Shown here: piece by piece, positions 44,125-60,018 of the stretch
Position numbering within the stretch: position 1 is the stretch's first letter
How the letters are laid out: every line of letters starts with the position of its first letter
From: Oscillospiraceae bacterium
GTDB taxonomy: Bacteria; Bacillota; Clostridia; Oscillospirales; Oscillospiraceae
Reading direction: 5' to 3'
Assembly (NCBI GenBank): GCA_017535635.1
Contig: JAFXTU010000056.1
Coordinates: 1-64,000, forward strand
DNA: 64,000 nucleotides
Notes under the pieces: generated by a model
Database searches by the model: none
What the model saw: the letters and a program-made list of their open reading frames with translations, nothing else
What the model was told of the DNA's origin: nothing
Position numbers and translations under genes: made by a program

Positions 44125-45545
44125 AAGCATACGACAAGCAGTACATCGGCGGCACCTGGCGGGAGGGCCGGGGACAGAAGGTCCTGGAAAACCGGAATCC
44201 CTACACCGGGGAAGTCCTCTATACCTACCGCTCCGCTTCCCGCGAGGACGTGGACGAGGCCTACGCCGCCGCGAAGGAGGCCCAGAGGGCCTGGGCGGCC
44301 CTGCCCCCTTCGGCAAGGGTGGATGCCCTGGAGCGGCTCTATAAGGTCATGCAGGAGTTCGCCCCGGTGATGGACGAATGCCTGCTGCTGGAAAACGGTG
44401 CCTGCGCTCCCAAGCGGGCCTACGAGGTGGGGGACAGCGCCAGGTTCGTCCGTTACTTCATGGCCTTTCCCCAGATGATGGAGGGGCGCATCCAGGCTTC
44501 CGACACTCCCGGGCAGACGAATTTCGTCTTTCGGAAGCCGAGAGGCGTGGTCACGGTCATCGCCCCCTGGAACGTGCCCTTCATTCTCGCCCTGCGGAGC
44601 GTCCTCCCCGCCCTTGCCTGCTCTAATGCCGTGGTGTTGAAGCCCGCCTCGGACACTCCCGCCTCTGCCCTCATCATCGCGGAGGCCTTTGAGAAAGCGG
44701 GACTCCCGGGAGGGCTCCTGAACGTAGTCGCCGGTGCCGGATCCGAGATCGGAGACTATTTGGTGGAGCACCCCCTCAGCGACATGGTCTCCTTCACCGG
44801 CTCCACCGAGGTGGGGCAGCGGATCGGAGAGAAGGCCGGAGCCAGAGTAAAGGACGTGTCCCTGGAGCTGGGGGGCAACAACTCCATGCTCCTCCTGCCG
44901 GACGCGGACCTGAAGCGGGCGGCGGAAAAGGCCGTCTTCGGGGCCTACTTCCACCAGGGCCAGGTCTGCATGGCCCTGAACCGAATCATCGCCGTGGGGG
45001 ATACCTACGAGAAGTTCGTCCCCATCCTGACGGAAAAGGTCCGGGCTCTGAAGGCCGGGGACCCGGCGGACCCGGAGACCTTCGTGGGCCCGCTGATCAA
45101 TGCCGGTCAGGTGAAGCATTTTAACGATTTATTGGAAGCCACCCGCCGGGCCGGGGCGAAGGTCCTGGTGGAGGGGAAGACGGAGGGGAACGTGATCCAT
45201 CCCTGGCTCCTGGGGGAAGTCACCAACGACATGCCTGCCGCCAGGAGTGAGATGTTCGGCCCCATCGTCAGCATCCTCCGGGCAAAGGACGAGGAAGAAG
45301 CCATCGCCATTGCCAACGACACCCCCTACGGGCTCAGCAACAGCGTTTTCGGACGGGACGTGTACCACGCAATGCAGATTGCCCAAAGGCTGGAGAGCGG
45401 CATGGTCCACGTGAACGACCAGTCCATCGGGGACGAAGCCCACGTCATGTTCGGCGGGGAAAAGGAGAGCGGCATCGGCCGCTTCAACGGCCATTGGGTC
45501 CTGGACAAATTTACCACGGAGCAGTGGCTGGCGGTGAATGAGTAG
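44121..45545 (+). CDS. NAD(P)-dependent aldehyde dehydrogenase
   Basis: A 474-residue ALDH-superfamily enzyme oxidising an aldehyde to the acid. Catalytic C283 lies in HQGQVCMALN, general-base E249 in SLELGGNN, and the cofactor region is TGSTEVGQRIGEKAG. The motif HQGQVCM resembles the benzaldehyde/vanillin dehydrogenase subgroup, but the substrate is not proven. AAGGAG precedes the ATG. The pair with the aminotransferase suggests a small catabolic unit, for instance deamination followed by aldehyde oxidation, with an intervening step encoded elsewhere. Confidence 0.93.
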   Translation: MKAYDKQYIGGTWREGRGQKVLENRNPYTGEVLYTYRSASREDVDEAYAAAKEAQRAWAALPPSARVDALERLYKVMQEFAPVMDECLLLENGACAPKRAYEVGDSARFVRYFMAFPQMMEGRIQASDTPGQTNFVFRKPRGVVTVIAPWNVPFILALRSVLPALACSNAVVLKPASDTPASALIIAEAFEKAGLPGGLLNVVAGAGSEIGDYLVEHPLSDMVSFTGSTEVGQRIGEKAGARVKDVSLELGGNNSMLLLPDADLKRAAEKAVFGAYFHQGQVCMALNRIIAVGDTYEKFVPILTEKVRALKAGDPADPETFVGPLINAGQVKHFNDLLEATRRAGAKVLVEGKTEGNVIHPWLLGEVTNDMPAARSEMFGPIVSILRAKDEEEAIAIANDTPYGLSNSVFGRDVYHAMQIAQRLESGMVHVNDQSIGDEAHVMFGGEKESGIGRFNGHWVLDKFTTEQWLAVNE

Positions 45546-45559
45546 TGCTTATTGAAAAC

Positions 45560-45590
45560 CCCGGGGGCGGTGAGCCGTCCCCGGGATTCT
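45560..45590 (+). terminator. Weak terminator after the aldehyde dehydrogenase gene
   Basis: cccgggggcgg / ccgtccccggg form an 11-bp stem with one mismatch and a TGAG loop, but the tail attctcag has few T. Confidence 0.5.
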
Positions 45591-45602
45591 CAGTAAAAAC
45601 AC

Positions 45603-45652
45603 GTTGACAAATGTAAGCGTCTGTGCTATGTTTTCGTTGACAAATGTAAGCG
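45603..45652 (+). promoter_or_regulatory. Promoter of blaI/blaR1 pair 2 with two direct operator repeats
   Basis: TTGACA (45604-45609), 17 bases, TATGTT (45627-45632). The 17-mer gttgacaaatgtaagcg occurs at 45603-45619, over the -35, and again at 45636-45652, just past the -10. The centres are 33 bp apart, three DNA turns. The GACAAATGTA core resembles known BlaI/MecI boxes. Confidence 0.82.
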
Positions 45653-45674
45653 ATAGCCGAAGGAGGCGCGGAAG

Positions 45675-46067
45675 ATGGCAAAAATGATCCTCTCCGACGG
45701 GGAGTGGCGCATCATGAATCTCCTGTGGGTCTCTTCGCCCCGGCGGGTGCCGGAGCTGACGGAGGCCCTGCAGGGGGATACGGGCTGGAGCCGGGCCACG
45801 GTGAACATGATGCTGAACCGGCTGGAGGAAAAGGGGGCCGTGGCCTCTGAGGTTCAGGGCCGCGCCAAAGTCTACTATCCCCTGCTCAGCCAGGCGGATG
45901 CCCGGCAGAAGGAGACCGCCCGCTTTCTGGACCGGCTCTACGGCGGCAGCCTGGGGCTGATGGTCTCCTCCATGGCAGGACAGCAGGCCCTGAGCGAGGC
46001 GGACCTGAATGCTCTTCGGGCCATCCTGGCGGAGGCGGAAGAGAAGGAGAAGACCGATGCTGAGTGA
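45675..46067 (+). CDS. BlaI/MecI-family transcriptional repressor (second copy)
   Basis: A 130-residue winged-helix repressor: ILSDGEWRIMNLLW at the N-terminus, recognition region SRATVNMMLNRLEEKGAVAS, then a helical dimer domain. It should bind the two gttgacaaatgtaagcg sites upstream. Its operator differs clearly from that of the other BlaI gene in this window, so the two circuits probably do not cross-talk. A GGAGG-type site precedes the ATG. It overlaps the sensor gene by 11 bases. Confidence 0.92.
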   Translation: MAKMILSDGEWRIMNLLWVSSPRRVPELTEALQGDTGWSRATVNMMLNRLEEKGAVASEVQGRAKVYYPLLSQADARQKETARFLDRLYGGSLGLMVSSMAGQQALSEADLNALRAILAEAEEKEKTDAE

Positions 46068-49000
46068 ATGGATCCTCTCCGCCAGTGCCCTCACGGCGGC
46101 GGTGCTGCTCCTGCGGCTCATTTTTCGCAGGCGCGTCTCCCAAAAGCTCATGTACGCCCTTTGGATCCCGGTGCTGCTGCGGTTGCTGCTCCCCATGCCC
46201 CTCTTCCACAGCCGCTACACCGTCTCCGGGGCGGCGGAGCTGTTTGAAACCACGTCCGCCCCGGCGTCCCGGGTGTATGTGACCCCCACGCCGGGGCCGG
46301 ATATCGTGCTGCCCCGCCCCACGGGAGAACCGACCGGAGAGCACTCTTCCGCCCCGCCGGTGACCCCCACTCCCGCTCCGGCCTCGCCCCGTCCCGCTTC
46401 CCAGGCCCCGGCGGCAAGACCGGCTGCGGTGCCCCGGCCCCTGAGCGTTTGGGCCATCCTGGGACGGCTCTGGCTGGCGGGGAGCGTGGCCGCGGGCCTC
46501 TGGCTCCTCTGGGTGAACCTGAATTTTGCCCACCGTCTGCGCCGAAGCCGTCAGGAATTTCGGCGGGAGGGCGTTCCCGTATACATCAGCCCGGAGATCG
46601 CCTCTCCCTGCCTCTTTGGCCTGGTGTGCCCCGCCATCTACCTGACCCCCGCCTGCGCTGAGGGGCCGGAGGAGGCGCGGAGCCAGGTGCTGCTCCACGA
46701 AGAGACCCATCATAAGCAGGGGGACCACGTCTGGGGCTGCCTCCGCTGCCTCTGCCTCGCGGTATGGTGGTGGAATCCCCTGGTGTGGCTGGCGGCCCTG
46801 TGCAGCCGCCTGGACGGGGAGCTGTGCTGCGATGAAAAGGTGATGAAGCTCCTGGGAGAAGAGGGGCGTCTCAGCTACGGGCACACCCTGGTAGACCTGG
46901 TGCCCACGAAGGCTCCCCGGCCCTTCCTCAGCGCCGCCACCCTCTCCGGCGGGGCCAGGGCCATGAAGGAGCGGCTGGACCGGATCGTGAAGCAGCCCCG
47001 GCTTTGGGCCGCGGCCGCCGCGCTGGCCCTGGCGCTGGCCATTCTCGCCGCCGCCTGCACCTTCGGCGGGAGACCGGAAGCGGGAGGCAATTCCCCCGCC
47101 GCCAAGCCTCAGCCCTCCGCCACCCCGGCGGTAACGCCTACGCCGGGGCCTGAGCCGGAGGGGGCCATCCATCCGGCCCTGCCCGCTTCGGTTCAGGAGA
47201 TCGTCCTCAGCGGCAGCGGAAAGACCGTTCACATTACGGACAGCGGGACCATCCGGGAGCTCGCCGTGGCGGCGGAAGCGCTGGAATTCCGGCCCGACCC
47301 GGAGGGGGACATGAACAAGCCCGGCGCAGTCTCCCTCAGCCTGGACTTCGTCACGGCCTCCGGCACGGAGACCCTCACCCTCCCCTACTGGCTCCGGGAC
47401 GGCGCAGTGTATTCCGCCGGGGCCGACAGCATCCGCCTCTTCGGCGGGTATCTCGGCGAGGGCGGCGAAGCGACCGGCCCCGAGGCGGCTCCGGAAGCGG
47501 CGCTGCTGCTGGAGCAGATCAATACCCGCTGGATCGTCGCGCTGACCTACGGGAACGCCCCGGAGGGCGGGCTCTCCCTCCGGGAGGAGGGGGAGGGCTT
47601 CCAGGAGGCCCTGGATCTCTTTCTCTCCCTGCGGGGGACCCCCTGCGAGGTGCCCCAAGAGATATTGAATGAGCGGCAGTTTGCCTTGAACCGTCTCTAC
47701 GGCGCCTGGCGGATCAACCTCGCCTGGGACGGAAAGTCGCTCTGCGCCCTGTGGGACGAGAGCTGGTACCGCCTGGAAAACGCGGGGCGGGCGGATCTGG
47801 AGCTGGAGGCCCTCTTTGAGGACTACGGCACCCGGAACCTCCTTCTGGTGCCGGAGGACCACAGCGGCCTGATCGAGGACGGCAGCATGACCATCGCCCT
47901 GGAGCAGACCGTTTTCAGCCTGGAAACGATCCTCGCCTGCCGGGATCTGGTGCAGGAGAAGCTGGACCGGGGAGAGACGCCCCGGGAGGAGGACTATGCG
48001 GGCGCTCTCCTTCGGCTTACCCTGCAAAACCACGCCGACGAGCCGATCAAGCCCCAATGGCCGGAGCTGGCGGCCTGGCGGGACGGGGTCTGGTACGCGC
48101 TGGACTATGCGTTCAGCCGCTACGCCATCGGCTACGTCATTTCACCGGGAGGGAGCCTGGCGGACGGAGTGGCCCTGACGGCCATTGCGCCGGAGCACCT
48201 GCTGCCGGGGCTCTACCGGGTCTGCGTCCCCTATCAGCTGGGGGAGGAGGGGCAGGGCCGGGACCACGCGGCCTTTGCGGAATTCGAGATCGCGGAGGCC
48301 CTGCCGACTCCCTCCGCCGTCCCGGAGGAACCCGCTTCTGAACCGACGCCGGAGCCGACCCCGGTCTCCTGGAAGCCGGTGACGCGGGAGATGGGAACGG
48401 ACTGGCTGACCCTGCCTGAGGAGGCCCGCTGGCTCACGGCGGAAGAAGTGGCGGACTGGGAGGCCTGGTTCGACGCCCACTGGATGCGCCGGCAGTTCCT
48501 TTGCTCCGCCTACGAGGGGCCGGAGGACGTGGACCTGAAATGGCTGTTCTACGCGGGGGTGGATACGGAAGAAAACGCGGAGGTGACCGGCTCCCATCCC
48601 GTCACCGACGAGGACATCCGCTACACCCTAATGCACCTGGGCTGGTGGGAGACAGAGTGCCCCACGGACAAGCTGCCCCGGCAGGAGATGGACGCGATCC
48701 TGCGCCGGTACCTGGGGCTGGGGCTGGAAGAGACGAAGCGGGTGGGGCTGAGCTACTATTACCTCCCGGAGACGGACTGCTACTACCACGCCCACGGGGA
48801 TACGAACTTCCACAAAACCCCCATGCTCTACGGCTACGCCCAGGGGGAGGAGGTCTGTCTCTTCTACGAGGGGGACGCCTTCTACTACGGCGACGAATAC
48901 CGGGACGGCTACACCGCCAAGGGAGATATCTACCGGGTGCAGCTGCGCAGGGATGGAGACGGCACGCGCTTCCTCTCCAACCTCCGGGTCCTGACGGACG

Positions 49001-50841
49001 GCGCGGCTTTCTCCTTCGATCCGCCCCAGCCCGCCCCCGGCGGGAGCGCCAACGAGACCGGGGATTACGGGCGGGACGTGACGCGGTACACCCCCACCGT
49101 GTGGGAGGACTTTGAGAACTACGACGCCGCCCAGGCTTCCATCGACGAGATCACCTTCCAAATTACTGGCGACGACTTCGTGCACCCCTTTGAGCGGAAG
49201 CTGGAGCGGGACTTTCCCGGTTACGGGACCCTGGTCTATGGGGAGGTGGGCACCGGAACGGTCCACGGGAGCGACAACCACATCTTCTTCGTCACGGAGG
49301 AGGGACGCCGGTACGAGCTGCCCGTTCCCGACCACATGATGGGAGAGTATGAGCTGACGGATTGGGAGAAGGCCAACGAGGGCCGGGGCTTCTACTTTAT
49401 GGGGGGATCCTCCTCCCTGGCCACCTGGTGGATGAACTGCGTGTACGAGACCTATATCGGCGCGGGCGAGATCCGCCAGGGGGGCAGCTGCTACTGGACC
49501 CTCTACCTCCCTACCATGGAGGTCTTCGCCTGGTTCCGCCCGGAGGACGGCGGGAGCATTCCGGAGCCCACACCCGAACCCACGCCTACGCCGACCCCCG
49601 AGCCCACACCTGAGCCGACGCCTACGCCGACCCAGGTCCCCTGGACGCCGGTGACTGTGGAGCAGTGGACGGATTGGCTGGAGCTTCCCGAGGGCGCCAG
49701 CTGGCTGAGCCAGGAGGAACTGTCCGAGTGGAAGGCCTGGTTCGACACGGACTGGATGCGGCGGCAGTTCCTCACCGCCCAGTATGAGCGGCCGGAGGAC
49801 GTGAGCCTGCGCTCGGTGTTCTACATGGGCGTGGATACCAAGGAGGAAAACTATATGGCCTATTCTCCCCCGGCGTTCACCCCGGAGGACAAGGGGAACT
49901 TCCTCCGCCTCTTCGGGGAATGGGACGAGGGCTGGGGGGCCGTCAAGCTGCCCCGGAGCGAGATGGAGGCCGTTCTGCAAAAATACCTGGGCCTGGGCAT
50001 GAACGACACAGCCCGGCGGGGCTTTGACTGGCCCTACGCCCCGGGCTCGGACGCCTACTACGCCATTAACGCCGGCTCCAACGCCTTCTCTCTGGCGGGC
50101 TTCCTCTACGGCTACGCCAAGGAGGAGGAGCTCAGCCTCTTCTACATGGTCAATTTCAAATACTACGACGAGCGGACCGGGCAGCCCGTCTACCCCCGGG
50201 AGGGCATTTTCCGGGTCGTCCTCCGCCGGGAGGGGGAGAGCGTCCGCTTTCTCTCCAACCTGCGGGCGCTTTCTAACGGCACGGACTCCGCCTATGAATC
50301 TCCCGAGCTGCAGGAGCCCTACCCCGACGATCTGGCGACCTACGCGGGGCGGGACGTGACGGTGATCGCCCCGGAGCCGGAGGTCTTTGAGAGCTACGAG
50401 GCGGCCCAGGCCGCCACGGACGAGATCGACTTCCGCATGGGAGAGGAGATCAATGACACCTTCCACCGCCTCCTGGAGCGGGAGTACCCCGGTTACGGGA
50501 CCCTGGTCTACGGGGAGCTGAGCACCGGGACGATACACGGTTCTTACAGCTATCTCTATTTCATCACCGAGGACGGCCGCCGGTATGAGCTTCCCACGCC
50601 CCAGTACGGCATGGGAGACATGGAGCTGGACCTGACGGCGGAGGGCTGGAGCGAGAAAGCCAACCAGGGGATGAATTACGCCCTTCTGGACAGCGGCGGC
50701 GACACGGTGCGCTGGTGGCTGAACTGCGTGTACGAGACGAACCCGGTGCTGGGCATGCTTCCGAAGCAGGGCGGAAACCTGTTTTACACCCTCTATCTCC
50801 CCACCATGGAGGTCTATGTCTGGTTCCTGCCAATGGAATGA
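46057..50841 (+). CDS. Giant BlaR1-type M56 sensor protease with duplicated ~400-residue ectodomain
   Basis: A 1594-residue protein. Helices at the N-terminus are interrupted by a Pro/Thr-rich loop (about 70-128). The zinc site is H214-E-E-T-H218, with the following GELCCDE glutamate. The last helix, about 312-335, ends in AAACTFGG. The rest is extracytoplasmic: a mixed domain (about 350-765), then two related ~400-residue units (about 769-1168 and 1195-1594) that share WMRRQFL, MGVDT/AGVDT, LPR-EM-A-L-YLGLG, FPGYGTLVYGE/YPGYGTLVYGE and LYLPTMEV. PT/PE repeats link them. Typical BlaR1 proteins are about 600 residues. No SxxK penicillin site was seen. The frame is unbroken throughout. The start ATG overlaps the repressor stop. 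Confidence 0.88.
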   Translation: MLSEWILSASALTAAVLLLRLIFRRRVSQKLMYALWIPVLLRLLLPMPLFHSRYTVSGAAELFETTSAPASRVYVTPTPGPDIVLPRPTGEPTGEHSSAPPVTPTPAPASPRPASQAPAARPAAVPRPLSVWAILGRLWLAGSVAAGLWLLWVNLNFAHRLRRSRQEFRREGVPVYISPEIASPCLFGLVCPAIYLTPACAEGPEEARSQVLLHEETHHKQGDHVWGCLRCLCLAVWWWNPLVWLAALCSRLDGELCCDEKVMKLLGEEGRLSYGHTLVDLVPTKAPRPFLSAATLSGGARAMKERLDRIVKQPRLWAAAAALALALAILAAACTFGGRPEAGGNSPAAKPQPSATPAVTPTPGPEPEGAIHPALPASVQEIVLSGSGKTVHITDSGTIRELAVAAEALEFRPDPEGDMNKPGAVSLSLDFVTASGTETLTLPYWLRDGAVYSAGADSIRLFGGYLGEGGEATGPEAAPEAALLLEQINTRWIVALTYGNAPEGGLSLREEGEGFQEALDLFLSLRGTPCEVPQEILNERQFALNRLYGAWRINLAWDGKSLCALWDESWYRLENAGRADLELEALFEDYGTRNLLLVPEDHSGLIEDGSMTIALEQTVFSLETILACRDLVQEKLDRGETPREEDYAGALLRLTLQNHADEPIKPQWPELAAWRDGVWYALDYAFSRYAIGYVISPGGSLADGVALTAIAPEHLLPGLYRVCVPYQLGEEGQGRDHAAFAEFEIAEALPTPSAVPEEPASEPTPEPTPVSWKPVTREMGTDWLTLPEEARWLTAEEVADWEAWFDAHWMRRQFLCSAYEGPEDVDLKWLFYAGVDTEENAEVTGSHPVTDEDIRYTLMHLGWWETECPTDKLPRQEMDAILRRYLGLGLEETKRVGLSYYYLPETDCYYHAHGDTNFHKTPMLYGYAQGEEVCLFYEGDAFYYGDEYRDGYTAKGDIYRVQLRRDGDGTRFLSNLRVLTDGAAFSFDPPQPAPGGSANETGDYGRDVTRYTPTVWEDFENYDAAQASIDEITFQITGDDFVHPFERKLERDFPGYGTLVYGEVGTGTVHGSDNHIFFVTEEGRRYELPVPDHMMGEYELTDWEKANEGRGFYFMGGSSSLATWWMNCVYETYIGAGEIRQGGSCYWTLYLPTMEVFAWFRPEDGGSIPEPTPEPTPTPTPEPTPEPTPTPTQVPWTPVTVEQWTDWLELPEGASWLSQEELSEWKAWFDTDWMRRQFLTAQYERPEDVSLRSVFYMGVDTKEENYMAYSPPAFTPEDKGNFLRLFGEWDEGWGAVKLPRSEMEAVLQKYLGLGMNDTARRGFDWPYAPGSDAYYAINAGSNAFSLAGFLYGYAKEEELSLFYMVNFKYYDERTGQPVYPREGIFRVVLRREGESVRFLSNLRALSNGTDSAYESPELQEPYPDDLATYAGRDVTVIAPEPEVFESYEAAQAATDEIDFRMGEEINDTFHRLLEREYPGYGTLVYGELSTGTIHGSYSYLYFITEDGRRYELPTPQYGMGDMELDLTAEGWSEKANQGMNYALLDSGGDTVRWWLNCVYETNPVLGMLPKQGGNLFYTLYLPTMEVYVWFLPME

Positions 50842-50853
50842 AGAAAAAGACGT

Positions 50854-50886
50854 CGGGCCCGGAGGCGGTTATCGTCTCCGGGCCCG
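50854..50886. terminator. Bidirectional terminator between the giant sensor and the PfkB kinase
   Basis: cgggcccggaggcg / cgtctccgggcccg form a 14-bp stem with one mismatch. The minus-strand tail ACGTCTTTTTCTTC is T-rich; the plus tail ttgattatg is weaker. Confidence 0.7.
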
Positions 50887-50903
50887 TTGATTATGTACAT
50901 GAA

Positions 50904-51821
50904 CTATAGTCCCAGTTCCTCCGGCCTCATGTCCGGGGCCACGTTCATTTTTGTGGCGATAACGGCAGACGCCAGGAGCGCCCCCACGCGGCAGGCTTCC
51001 TCCAGGCTCTTTCCCCGCCTTAGTCCCAGGCAGGTCCCGGCGAAAAAGGCGTCCCCGGCGCCGGTGGTATCTATGACCTCCGCCGGAACGGGGGGACAGA
51101 AGCCCCGCTCCCCTTCCTTCGTCGCCCACACGGCCCCCCGCTCCCCCAGGGTCACGACCATGGCGGGGATCTCTTCCCGCCGCAGATGCCGGAGCAGGCG
51201 CAGGTATACCTCATCCGGCTCCAGGTCCTCCTCCGCCTCTTCCCCGAAGAGCAGGCCCATCTCCTGCCGGTTGCAGACGAAGAGGGCCGTCCGGGGAAGG
51301 AAAGCGCGGCGGGAGGCGGCGATGCTCATGACGCTGACGGCGGCGTAAACCGGAATACGGTGCTTCTCCGCCAGGGCGCAGGCCCGCTCCAGAGTTTCCT
51401 CCTCCAGATCCAGCTCCAGGAGCACGCAGTCCGCCTCCGAGAAGATGGCCTCCCCTTCCTGGGCCAGGATCTCCCCGATGGGCCGCAGATCCGGCCTTCT
51501 TGAGACGGAGGCGACCACATCCCCCCGATGGTCGAAGACCGCCAGCCAGGTCCCCATGCCGTTCTCCGCCGTCCGGGAATGGGAGACGTCCACCCCCCGC
51601 TCCCGGAGGTGCCGAAGGACGCCCGCTCCGGTGGGCGTGGGGTCCGCCAGGCCAACGTAGACCGGCCTCTCCCCCTCCGCGGCCAGGTCCTCGGCGATGT
51701 TCCGGGCCACGCCCCCGTGGACCTCCTCGATCCGGCCCGGATTCCTCCCGCCGGGGATGTAGGTCTCCAGGGAATAGCCCTTCAGGTCCACAAAGGCGCT
51801 GCCGATGACCACCATGCTCAT
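50904..51821 (-). CDS. PfkB-family kinase, pseudouridine-kinase-like
   Basis: A 305-residue ribokinase-fold sugar/nucleoside kinase. EVHGGVARNIAEDLA near the N-terminus is the form I associate with pseudouridine kinases, and the C-terminal catalytic signature is DTTGAGDAFFAGTCLGL. If it is PsuK, it phosphorylates pseudouridine from RNA turnover; the usual partner psuG glycosidase is not in the window. AGGAGG lies ten bases before the ATG, which overlaps the dnaI stop by four bases, so it is the third gene of the dnaD-dnaI operon. Confidence 0.85.
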   Translation of the reverse strand: MSMVVIGSAFVDLKGYSLETYIPGGRNPGRIEEVHGGVARNIAEDLAAEGERPVYVGLADPTPTGAGVLRHLRERGVDVSHSRTAENGMGTWLAVFDHRGDVVASVSRRPDLRPIGEILAQEGEAIFSEADCVLLELDLEEETLERACALAEKHRIPVYAAVSVMSIAASRRAFLPRTALFVCNRQEMGLLFGEEAEEDLEPDEVYLRLLRHLRREEIPAMVVTLGERGAVWATKEGERGFCPPVPAEVIDTTGAGDAFFAGTCLGLRRGKSLEEACRVGALLASAVIATKMNVAPDMRPEELGL

Positions 51822-57985: not shown

Positions 57986-60018
57986 TGCCCACACGCAGCA
58001 TCCGTCCCCTTCGGGCCGCCATTCTGACTGCCATTCCCCTGCTCCTGGCGGGGGCCCTCCTGGCCATTCTCTACGGCCTGCAGGTGGTAAACGCCGCCGC
58101 CCTGCAGGAGGAGGACCACGGCACCTTCACCCGGACGGAGACCGTCTCCGCCTCCCGGGGAGACATTCTGGACCGCTACGGCCGGGTCCTGGTGACCAGC
58201 GAGGTCAGCTACGACGTGGCCATTTCCCGCAGCGCCCTGGTGGCGGATGAGGACCCCAACGGCATTCTGCTGGAGCTCATCGCCCTCACGGAGGAGGCAG
58301 GGCTGGGGCATACGGACACCCTGCCCGTGACCAGGGGCGTCCCCTATGCCTATACGGAAATGAGCTCCGGGCAGCGGGACCGCCTCGCGGACTACGCCGC
58401 CCACTTTGAGCTTGGGGAGGAACTCACGGCGGAGGAGCTGATGGCCTGGTTCCGGGAGCACTACGCCATCCCGGAGGAATATTCCCCCGAGGAGGCCCGG
58501 CTGGCCGCCGGGGTCCGCTGGGAGCTGGAGATGGACACCCTCTTCGGCGGGGGCTATACCTTCGCCTCCGGCCTCAGCCAGGGGCTCATCGCCGCTGTTT
58601 CCGAGCGCTGCTACCCCGGGGTGAGCATCGTCACCGGCTCCCGGCGGGTCTACCGGACCCCCTACGCCGCCCACCTGCTGGGGCGCGTCGGCCCCATGAA
58701 CGAGGAGCAGTGGGCCAAATACAAGGAACTGGGCTACCCCCTGAACGCCCTGGTGGGGCAGGACGGGGCCGAGGGCGCCTTTGAGGAATACCTCCACGGC
58801 ACCGAGGGGCAGCGGGTCACCGTGCGAAATACTGACGGGGAGATCCTCTCTTCCTACTACACCCAGGAGCCCCAGGCCGGCGCGGACGTGACCCTGACTC
58901 TGGACCTCAGCGCCCAGCAGGTGACGGAGGAAGCTCTGGCCGCCGAGATCGCCAAGATCAACGCCGACCGGCTGAAGGAGGCGAAGGGCGAGGAAGTGCA
59001 GCTGGCCCAGGGCGGCGCCTGCGTAGTGGTCCAGGTGGGCACCGGGGACATCCTGGCCTCCGCCTCCTACCCCTCCTATGATCTGGCCTCCTTCCAGGAG
59101 CGCTACGCCGACCTGCTGGCGGACCCGGCCCGGCCCATGGTGAACCGTGCCCTCCAGGGCCGCTACGCCCCCGGCTCCACCTTCAAGGTGGTCACCGCCA
59201 CGGCGGGGCTCAGCGAGGGGGTCATCACCCCCCTCACCACCATCTACGACCGGGGCATCATCGACGAATACGAGGGCTACAGCTACACCTGCTGGGCCTA
59301 TCCCGGCTCCCACGGGACCATCAACGTGATGGAGGCCCTGCAGATGTCCTGCAACTACTTTTTCTACATCACCGGGCGGAACGTGGGCATCGACGCCATC
59401 GACCGCTACGCCAAGGCTTACGGCCTGGGGCAGAGCACGGGCATCGAGCTCTACGAGAGCACCGGCATCCTGGCCTCCCGGGATTACAAGGAGGAGAACG
59501 TGGGGGAGAGCTGGTACGTGGGCGACACCCTCCAGGCCGCCATCGGCCAGAGCTACCACCTCTTCACTCCCCTGCAGCTGGCCTCCTACTGCGCCACCAT
59601 CGCCGGTGGCGGGGACCGGTACGCCGCCCACCTGCTCTACTCTGTCTCCGGCCCCGGCGGCTTCCTCTATCCCCCCACGGTCCTCAGCACCGTGGAGGCA
59701 GACGAGGAGACCTTCAACACCCTCCACGAGGGGATGTATATGGCCTCCCGCTACGGCAGCGCGTCCTATGTGTTCAACAGCTACTCCATCCCCGTCTGCT
59801 CCAAGACCGGCACGGCCCAGGTCAGCGAGGATACGGTGAACAACGCGGTGTTCATCGCCTTCGCGCCCAAGGAGGACCCGGAGATCGCCCTGGCGGTGGT
59901 GGTGGAGAACGGGGCCAACGGCTACTACCTGGCGGAGGTGGCCAGAGATATCTTCGACTGGTACTTCTCCCGGGACCCGGAGGCCGCTCCCATCCCGGAG
60001 AATACGATCCTGCCGTAA
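57985..60018 (+). CDS. mrdA: Class B penicillin-binding protein 2 (transpeptidase of the elongasome)
   Basis: A 677-residue membrane-anchored transpeptidase. One N-terminal helix (about 9-32), a dimerisation domain with ASRGDILDRYGRVLVTS, then the transpeptidase domain with active-site S398 in APGSTFKV (K401), the SCN motif in MSCNYFFY and CSKTGTAQ. It crosslinks peptidoglycan during lateral wall growth and is the target of beta-lactams. No unusual substitution was seen around the three motifs. The upstream open frame to 57883 overlaps mreD and is spurious. Confidence 0.95.
   Translation: MPTRSIRPLRAAILTAIPLLLAGALLAILYGLQVVNAAALQEEDHGTFTRTETVSASRGDILDRYGRVLVTSEVSYDVAISRSALVADEDPNGILLELIALTEEAGLGHTDTLPVTRGVPYAYTEMSSGQRDRLADYAAHFELGEELTAEELMAWFREHYAIPEEYSPEEARLAAGVRWELEMDTLFGGGYTFASGLSQGLIAAVSERCYPGVSIVTGSRRVYRTPYAAHLLGRVGPMNEEQWAKYKELGYPLNALVGQDGAEGAFEEYLHGTEGQRVTVRNTDGEILSSYYTQEPQAGADVTLTLDLSAQQVTEEALAAEIAKINADRLKEAKGEEVQLAQGGACVVVQVGTGDILASASYPSYDLASFQERYADLLADPARPMVNRALQGRYAPGSTFKVVTATAGLSEGVITPLTTIYDRGIIDEYEGYSYTCWAYPGSHGTINVMEALQMSCNYFFYITGRNVGIDAIDRYAKAYGLGQSTGIELYESTGILASRDYKEENVGESWYVGDTLQAAIGQSYHLFTPLQLASYCATIAGGGDRYAAHLLYSVSGPGGFLYPPTVLSTVEADEETFNTLHEGMYMASRYGSASYVFNSYSIPVCSKTGTAQVSEDTVNNAVFIAFAPKEDPEIALAVVVENGANGYYLAEVARDIFDWYFSRDPEAAPIPENTILP

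Follow-up and report, generated by a model that had tools for sequence, protein, structure and literature searches.

A BlaR1-type M56 sensor from an Oscillospiraceae bacterium carries a modular ectodomain related to surface lipoproteins

The BlaR1/BlaI systems of Staphylococcus aureus and Bacillus licheniformis, together with MecR1/MecI, are the closest described counterparts of the operon reported here. BlaR1 is taught as an antibiotic detector, and the sensor domains of classic BlaR1 and MecR1 proteins carry the motifs SxxK, SxN and KTG. The accessible part of one account describes the BlaR1 sensor as class-D-beta-lactamase-like (PMC7593790) and, together with PMC9834060 (both available in part), it provides a precedent for a sensor that resembles its effector. 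According to the available portion of a DAP-seq study, a clostridial BlaI regulon can consist of a single self-regulated operon that includes a hypothetical protein (PMC8457756).

Here, we describe a BlaI-sensor operon in a 64,000-nucleotide stretch of DNA (hereafter the window) from an Oscillospiraceae bacterium (assembly GCA_017535635.1, contig JAFXTU010000056.1). It resembles BlaR1/BlaI and MecR1/MecI in the M56 gluzincin residues and their spacing, in its adjoining BlaI-family repressor, in the operators on its own promoter and in an ectodomain that lies C-terminal of the last helix. In contrast to BlaR1 and MecR1, this ectodomain comprises ~1250 residues of modules, here termed units A and B, without a recognisable penicillin-binding domain, and the operon lacks a beta-lactamase or mecA-like gene. 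Likeness extends to the BlaI_1845 and BlaI_0696 regulons of Clostridium thermocellum, which in the part of PMC8457756 available are small, self-regulated BlaI-BlaR1 operons with paired operators and a hypothetical protein as presumed output, but the binding motif given there differs from the box found here. We propose, with a probability of about 0.6, that the operon encodes a one-step transmembrane proteolytic switch of the BlaR1/BlaI type, the outer part of which is built from exchangeable A and B modules that are also found as free surface lipoproteins.

A preliminary description of this DNA had proposed a BlaR1-type sensor of 1594 residues, a retained M56 zinc site and BlaR1/BlaI wiring, and all three proposals are borne out. 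The sensor gene is open throughout (Table 1), and residues 4-308 match Peptidase_M56 (PF05569) in Pfam at 134.7 bits (cut-off 31, E 5e-39). All known catalytic residues are present, and none of H214, E215, H218, D223, E255, D259, Y274 and R306 varies among the 68 M56 rows aligned, a set that includes overlapping copies of the window protein and keeps matches starting before query position 30 and ending beyond 310. Their spacing is that of H201/E202/H205/D210/E242/D246/Y261/R293-294 in S. aureus BlaR1, for which the accessible text of PMC9834060 names H201/H205/D210/E242/D246/Y261 and R293-294. Judged by sequence, the protease half that would serve as the switch is intact, and the sensor as a whole is real, intact and conserved within its genus.

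Table 1. Features of the blaI-sensor operon, in window coordinates
Feature	Position	Strand	Basis
Operator box 1, overlapping the -35 hexamer	45604..45619	+	exact repeat
Sigma-A-type promoter, TTGACA-17-TATGTT	45604..45632	+	10/12 consensus matches
Operator box 2, 33 bp downstream of box 1	45637..45652	+	exact repeat
BlaI/MecI-family repressor, 130 aa	45675..46067	+	Penicillinase_R match; gapless PDB alignment
M56 sensor protein, 1594 aa	46057..50841	+	ORF open throughout
Peptidase_M56 domain, residues 4-308; HExxH 214-218, ExxxD 255-259	46066..46980	+	profile match and motifs
Hydrophobic segment, residues 314-339, taken as the last transmembrane helix	46996..47073	+	hydropathy
Low-complexity linker and juxtamembrane stretch without an assigned domain, residues 346-480	47092..47496	+	
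Unit A (An + Ac; Ac = Big_14 Ig-like), residues ~481-756	47497..48324	+	
PT/PE linker, residues 750-771	48304..48369	+	
Unit B copy 1, Bn then Bc	48355..49560	+	
PT/PE linker, residues 1169-1195	49561..49641	+	
Unit B copy 2, Bn then Bc	49657..50838	+	
Strong hairpin, 12 bp past the sensor stop	50854..50886	+	15-pair stem, -32.4 kcal/mol, z -4.9

Directly upstream, blaI overlaps the sensor gene by 11 bases, and its product matches Penicillinase_R (PF03965) at 102.3 bits (cut-off 22.6, E 2.7e-29) and aligns to the MecI and BlaI chains in the PDB. The published BlaI cut site, given as Asn101/Phe102 in the available part of PMC9834060, aligns with Ser99/Met100 of the window repressor. The clear operator boxes reported earlier are confirmed as two identical 16-base copies, TTGACAAATGTAAGCG, starting at 45604 and 45637; 0.11 boxes would be expected by chance at ≤3 mismatches, and the pair was seen in 0 of 100 shuffles. 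The promoter is the sole promoter-like site within 45500-51000. Box 1 is found with 0-1 mismatches to the genus consensus in all six orthologous promoters, and box 2 keeps its 33-bp offset, with ≤3 mismatches, in five of six genus members, being absent in the congener G001. The hairpin is likely a terminator despite its poor T-run, and the operon, which in the window species consists of blaI and the sensor gene only, probably ends there. No beta-lactamase or low-affinity penicillin-binding protein gene lies in this hairpin-closed operon or its divergon; the flanks hold an aldehyde-dehydrogenase-like ORF and, on the opposite strand, a kinase-like ORF (both named by eye).

The ectodomain is more modular than had been described. 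Its duplicated ~400-residue unit stands as such, since the two copies of unit B (~390 residues each) share 47% identity over 392 columns (E 3e-115), but each copy is itself two separable domains, Bn (~200 residues) and Bc (~160): the G001 sensor has a Bc but no Bn, and numerous M56 proteins have a Bn but no Bc. A tree of unit B did not settle whether the duplication in the window sensor predates the species split. The PT/PE linkers said to join the units were located (Table 1). A domain of ~415 residues had been called unique, and this description fails: its last ~275 residues (~481-756) are unit A, single-copy in the window sensor and present in two to three copies in relatives, with an Ig-like half. 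Each of the 15 A units matches Big_14 (PF20251) in this second half, Ac, at E values of up to 5 (best 2.9e-14), with the window copy alone scoring 19.7 bits (E 8e-4), below the curated cut-off of 27. An AlphaFold model of unit A (mean pLDDT 83.8, pTM 0.63) gave Ig-like fold matches over residues 128-271, thus in the second half alone, the first half having barely been searched. The fold check of the repeat called for in the preliminary description yielded no clear structural match: the model of unit B (pLDDT 80, pTM 0.81) had no Foldseek match in the PDB at E ≤ 1e-3, and its best structural Z score (7.0, for Bc alone, with weak likeness to pieces of beta-propellers) is no higher than may be expected when no true relative exists. 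Both units are predicted to be mostly beta. Sequence searches of the PDB with the whole sensor, unit A and unit B found no convincing match, and no relative of unit B was found among viral contigs.

The most telling evidence comes from lipoproteins that relatives encode in the same operon, which the preliminary description had no means of seeing. In three congeners (G004, G001 and G002), the operon includes lipoproteins built mainly from unit A. The operon of G004 reads blaI, M56-A-A-Bn-Bc and then a lipoprotein A-A of 610 aa, and that of G001 reads blaI, M56-A-A-(another module)-Bc and again a lipoprotein A-A. In G002, an 1128-aa lipoprotein A-A-A overlaps the blaI stop by four bases and is followed by an M56 start at the contig end; another G002 contig begins with the end of a Bc and continues with a lipoprotein A-A that is 93% identical to that of G001. 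Over 552 residues, the A-A block of the G001 sensor (371-921) and part of the G002 lipoprotein (343-894) are 68% identical, and a maximum-likelihood tree built from 15 A units places the G001 sensor A1 with the G002 lipoprotein A2 (support 100/100) and sensor A2 with lipoprotein A3 (100/99). Because the ectodomain of the G002 sensor is cut by the contig end, an A-A copy could also lie there, and a true sensor-to-lipoprotein swap is only a candidate explanation. These A-unit lipoproteins in the sensor's own operon, and the closely similar block in a sensor and a lipoprotein, are what is new here. Modules vary between congeners in number, and in G006 and G003 unit B is present with no A match in the part seen. 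Instead of A, G003:C46 (L032, residues 1-310) and the G006 sensor (~330-600) have a further kind of ectodomain module that is apparently repeated, with 56% identity over 269 residues between the two.

Sharing of an ectodomain between a sensor and a neighbouring gene occurred in 2 of 11 cases in the genus-centred set (from which G002, with its sensor split over contigs, is excluded), in 1 of 22 in a set selected for Bn and in 0 of 37 in a family sample of M56 sensors. In the case from the Bn set, L119, the gene for a Bn protein lies 20 bp upstream of the one for M56-Bn. The family-wide zero restricts such sharing to this operon type and L119, and we reject it as a rule of the family. The window species itself has no co-operonic lipoprotein, since its operon closes after blaI and the sensor, and no A lipoprotein was found in its genome (82% complete).

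Unit B is widely distributed. A survey of Oscillospiraceae for this unit, as the preliminary description had suggested, returned profile matches in 65 of 300 genomes and 35 of 106 genera, mostly as Bn, either immediately beyond the membrane in other M56 sensors or within free lipoproteins. Among 40 Bn loci outside the genus, the best-scoring of the matches listed, 24 ORFs combined M56 with Bn and 17 carried Bn alone; Bn started 4-53 residues past M56 in 21 of the former, and a simple lipobox pattern, which misses some, was found in 10 of the latter. These 24 sensors share the M56 half and Bn with the window sensor, but mostly have one Bn directly past the membrane and lack its duplicated C-terminal Bn-Bc. 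Records combining M56 and Bn include a Lawsonibacter sp. (L051), an Oscillospiraceae bacterium (L052), an Agathobacter sp. (L053) and a Lachnospiraceae MAG with its M56 cut at the contig end (L055). In the window genome, unit B is also present in a free lipoprotein (G000:C14, L037), and Bn is matched in a second M56 protein (G000:C39, L060, 1165-4476; 1103 aa). Lipobox signal peptides were seen by eye in the A or B products of L029 (5826-7658), L033 (358-3744), L034, L036 and L037. Ectodomain modules are shared between paralogous sensors as well: elsewhere in the window genome, the longer M56 protein of G000:C47 has a ~167-residue stretch that resembles the additional module of the G001 sensor at 48% identity. 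As side observations, the protein at G000:C39 has a near-threshold bacterial SH3 domain (SH3_3, 25.9 vs 27 bits), two M56 genes neighbour each other on the same strand at G000:C47:105429-109175 (L057), and the window holds another M56 sensor (L003, 13952-14770, minus strand; 758 aa read) with an ectodomain that has no Pfam match.

The regulon appears to be tiny. A search of the window genome for the exact box, allowing ≤2 mismatches, returned the two operon copies and one 2-mismatch site, and a looser pattern gave 19 matches in seven genomes against 7 for a reversed control, 9 of the 19 at this blaI operon; this fits the single-operon clostridial BlaI regulons in the available part of PMC8457756. 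None of the six regions upstream of free A and B lipoproteins, including that of G000:C14 in the window's own genome, had a box above chance, since their best candidates had 4-5 mismatches and most of 300 random pieces did as well, and we therefore reject these lipoproteins as BlaI targets. One match to the looser pattern is common to two congeners: a one-mismatch operator-like box lies near a glycosyltransferase-like gene in both G003 (G003:C43:8225-8239) and G006 (G006:C59:2066-2080), and the opposite flank of the G003 box holds the start of a lipoprotein that matches Ac (L073, 1636-3015). As TTGACA within the box alone makes promoter matches likely, this site is a lead only.

Under the proposed mechanism, BlaI on the two boxes observed over the -35 and start region would repress its own operon. 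An extracellular event at A or B, either ligand binding or contact with a related lipoprotein, would move the last helix, allowing the M56 site, whose catalytic residues are in place, to cut BlaI near Ser99/Met100, a position suggested by alignment. Derepression would then yield more sensor and, in congeners, also A-unit lipoproteins. In favour of this scheme are the conserved catalytic residues, the promoter and its operators, the A-unit lipoproteins of three congeners, the A-A block common to a sensor and a lipoprotein, and the occurrence of Bn both beside M56 and in free proteins. Against it stand the two-gene operon of the window species, the free B lipoprotein G000:C14 with no box above chance, and the rarity of sharing between sensor and neighbour. 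We consider it likely that the modules of sensor and lipoprotein recognise the same thing, such that the sensor would report the ligand its lipoprotein handles, which would parallel classic BlaR1, with its class-D-beta-lactamase-like sensor in control of a beta-lactamase.

The BlaR1/BlaI wiring and a penicillin-binding protein gene 8 kb away might suggest that the operon senses beta-lactams after all, with one unit a very diverged penicillin-binding domain, but we consider this highly improbable. Pfam found no penicillin-binding domain in the sensor, and no transpeptidase or beta-lactamase profile matched it or its A and B units; the preliminary description had stated that its own reading would be refuted if the repeats matched the profile of a known sensor domain for beta-lactams or peptidoglycan, and no such match was found. 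Its report that SxxK is missing holds for repeat 1, but a lone SxxK string occurs in repeat 2, at residue 1223; KTG and KSG motifs are found nowhere in the sensor. NCBIfam blaR1_generic reached 89.4 bits against a cut-off of 400, its best stretch falling in the protease half, and the predicted structures, mostly beta with half of A Ig-like, also speak against a penicillin-binding fold. A hidden penicillin-binding protein is thus rejected as the main reading. The gene 8 kb away, with its transpeptidase domain (PF00905, E 1e-54) at 59014-59955 on the plus strand, lies outside the sensor operon and is one of three transpeptidase matches in the window genome, none of which coincides with any of its eight M56 proteins. 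M56 is present in 41 of 61 Oscillospiraceae genomes, and 40 loci drawn from the better-scoring M56 rows gave 37 sensors, all with ectodomains of at least 80 residues. A transpeptidase or beta-lactamase domain was found in 0 of these 37 (Pfam, E 0.001), and its absence here is therefore not exceptional: the contrast with penicillin-binding BlaR1 drawn earlier is correct for this sensor, but it applies to the whole class and is not special to it. The window sensor belongs to a broad class of M56 sensors that is little described in searchable papers, and we found no account of M56 sensors of this kind in the literature searched, which leaves subscription journals mostly out of reach.

What the other ectodomains of this sample contain bears on a second alternative, in which the ligand of the modules is peptidoglycan, another wall polymer or a peptide active on the wall, and the system reports cell-wall or envelope stress. 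Peptidase_M23 occurred in two of the 37 and LytR_cpsA_psr in one, and such ectodomains may act in this way elsewhere; Big_14 and FG-GAP occurred in two each, and DUF4825, DUF4362, DUF4829, CBM9_2, FG-GAP_3 and Lipocalin_4 in one each. The tiny, self-regulated BlaI regulons of C. thermocellum, which in the accessible part of PMC8457756 include a putative peptidoglycan gene or hypothetical proteins, point the same way, but units A and B have no wall-binding or hydrolase profile and the operon contains no evident wall gene, and we rate this reading as rather unlikely. We regard it as somewhat less probable still that A units of lipoproteins, on the same or a neighbouring cell, bind the A unit of the sensor, which would then read lipoprotein amount or cell contact and have no soluble ligand. 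The same A modules do occur in sensors and co-operonic lipoproteins, and Ac has a weak Ig-like match to RbmA, a biofilm scaffold protein of Vibrio (Foldseek E 2e-4, TM 0.25-0.31). However, comparable scores are common between Ig folds and unrelated proteins, the incomplete window genome shows no A lipoprotein, and much of the sensor is B rather than A. Finally, the ectodomain could be a fast-drifting, non-sensing scaffold, with the switch answering to membrane state or protein turnover. It diverges faster than M56 (65% identity between window and G004 in M56, against 32% in A and 49-51% in B) and differs in module number among congeners, but all frames are intact, residues of B including W26, R45, F48, Y53 and Y136 are invariant in 11 sequences, and Bn is kept beside the membrane in many genera, all of which make a mere scaffold improbable.

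Returning to the proteolytic switch with exchangeable modules, a broader and distinctly tentative proposal is that M56 sensors of rumen and gut Clostridia capture, and give back, modules of the lipoproteins of their own operons, so that the detector would be a copy of the effector tethered to the membrane, with BlaR1 as a single instance of a wider principle. If this were true, the ligand could be found simply by identifying the binding partners of the A and B lipoproteins. A BlaR1-type switch is widespread in this gut bacterial family, and by profile none of the ectodomains sampled is penicillin-binding. Should their modules bind identifiable ligands, annotation of such proteins as beta-lactam sensors or in antibiotic resistance would be misleading, and the family would hold a large untapped set of extracellular sensors, for which the link to lipoproteins makes the question of the ligand directly testable.
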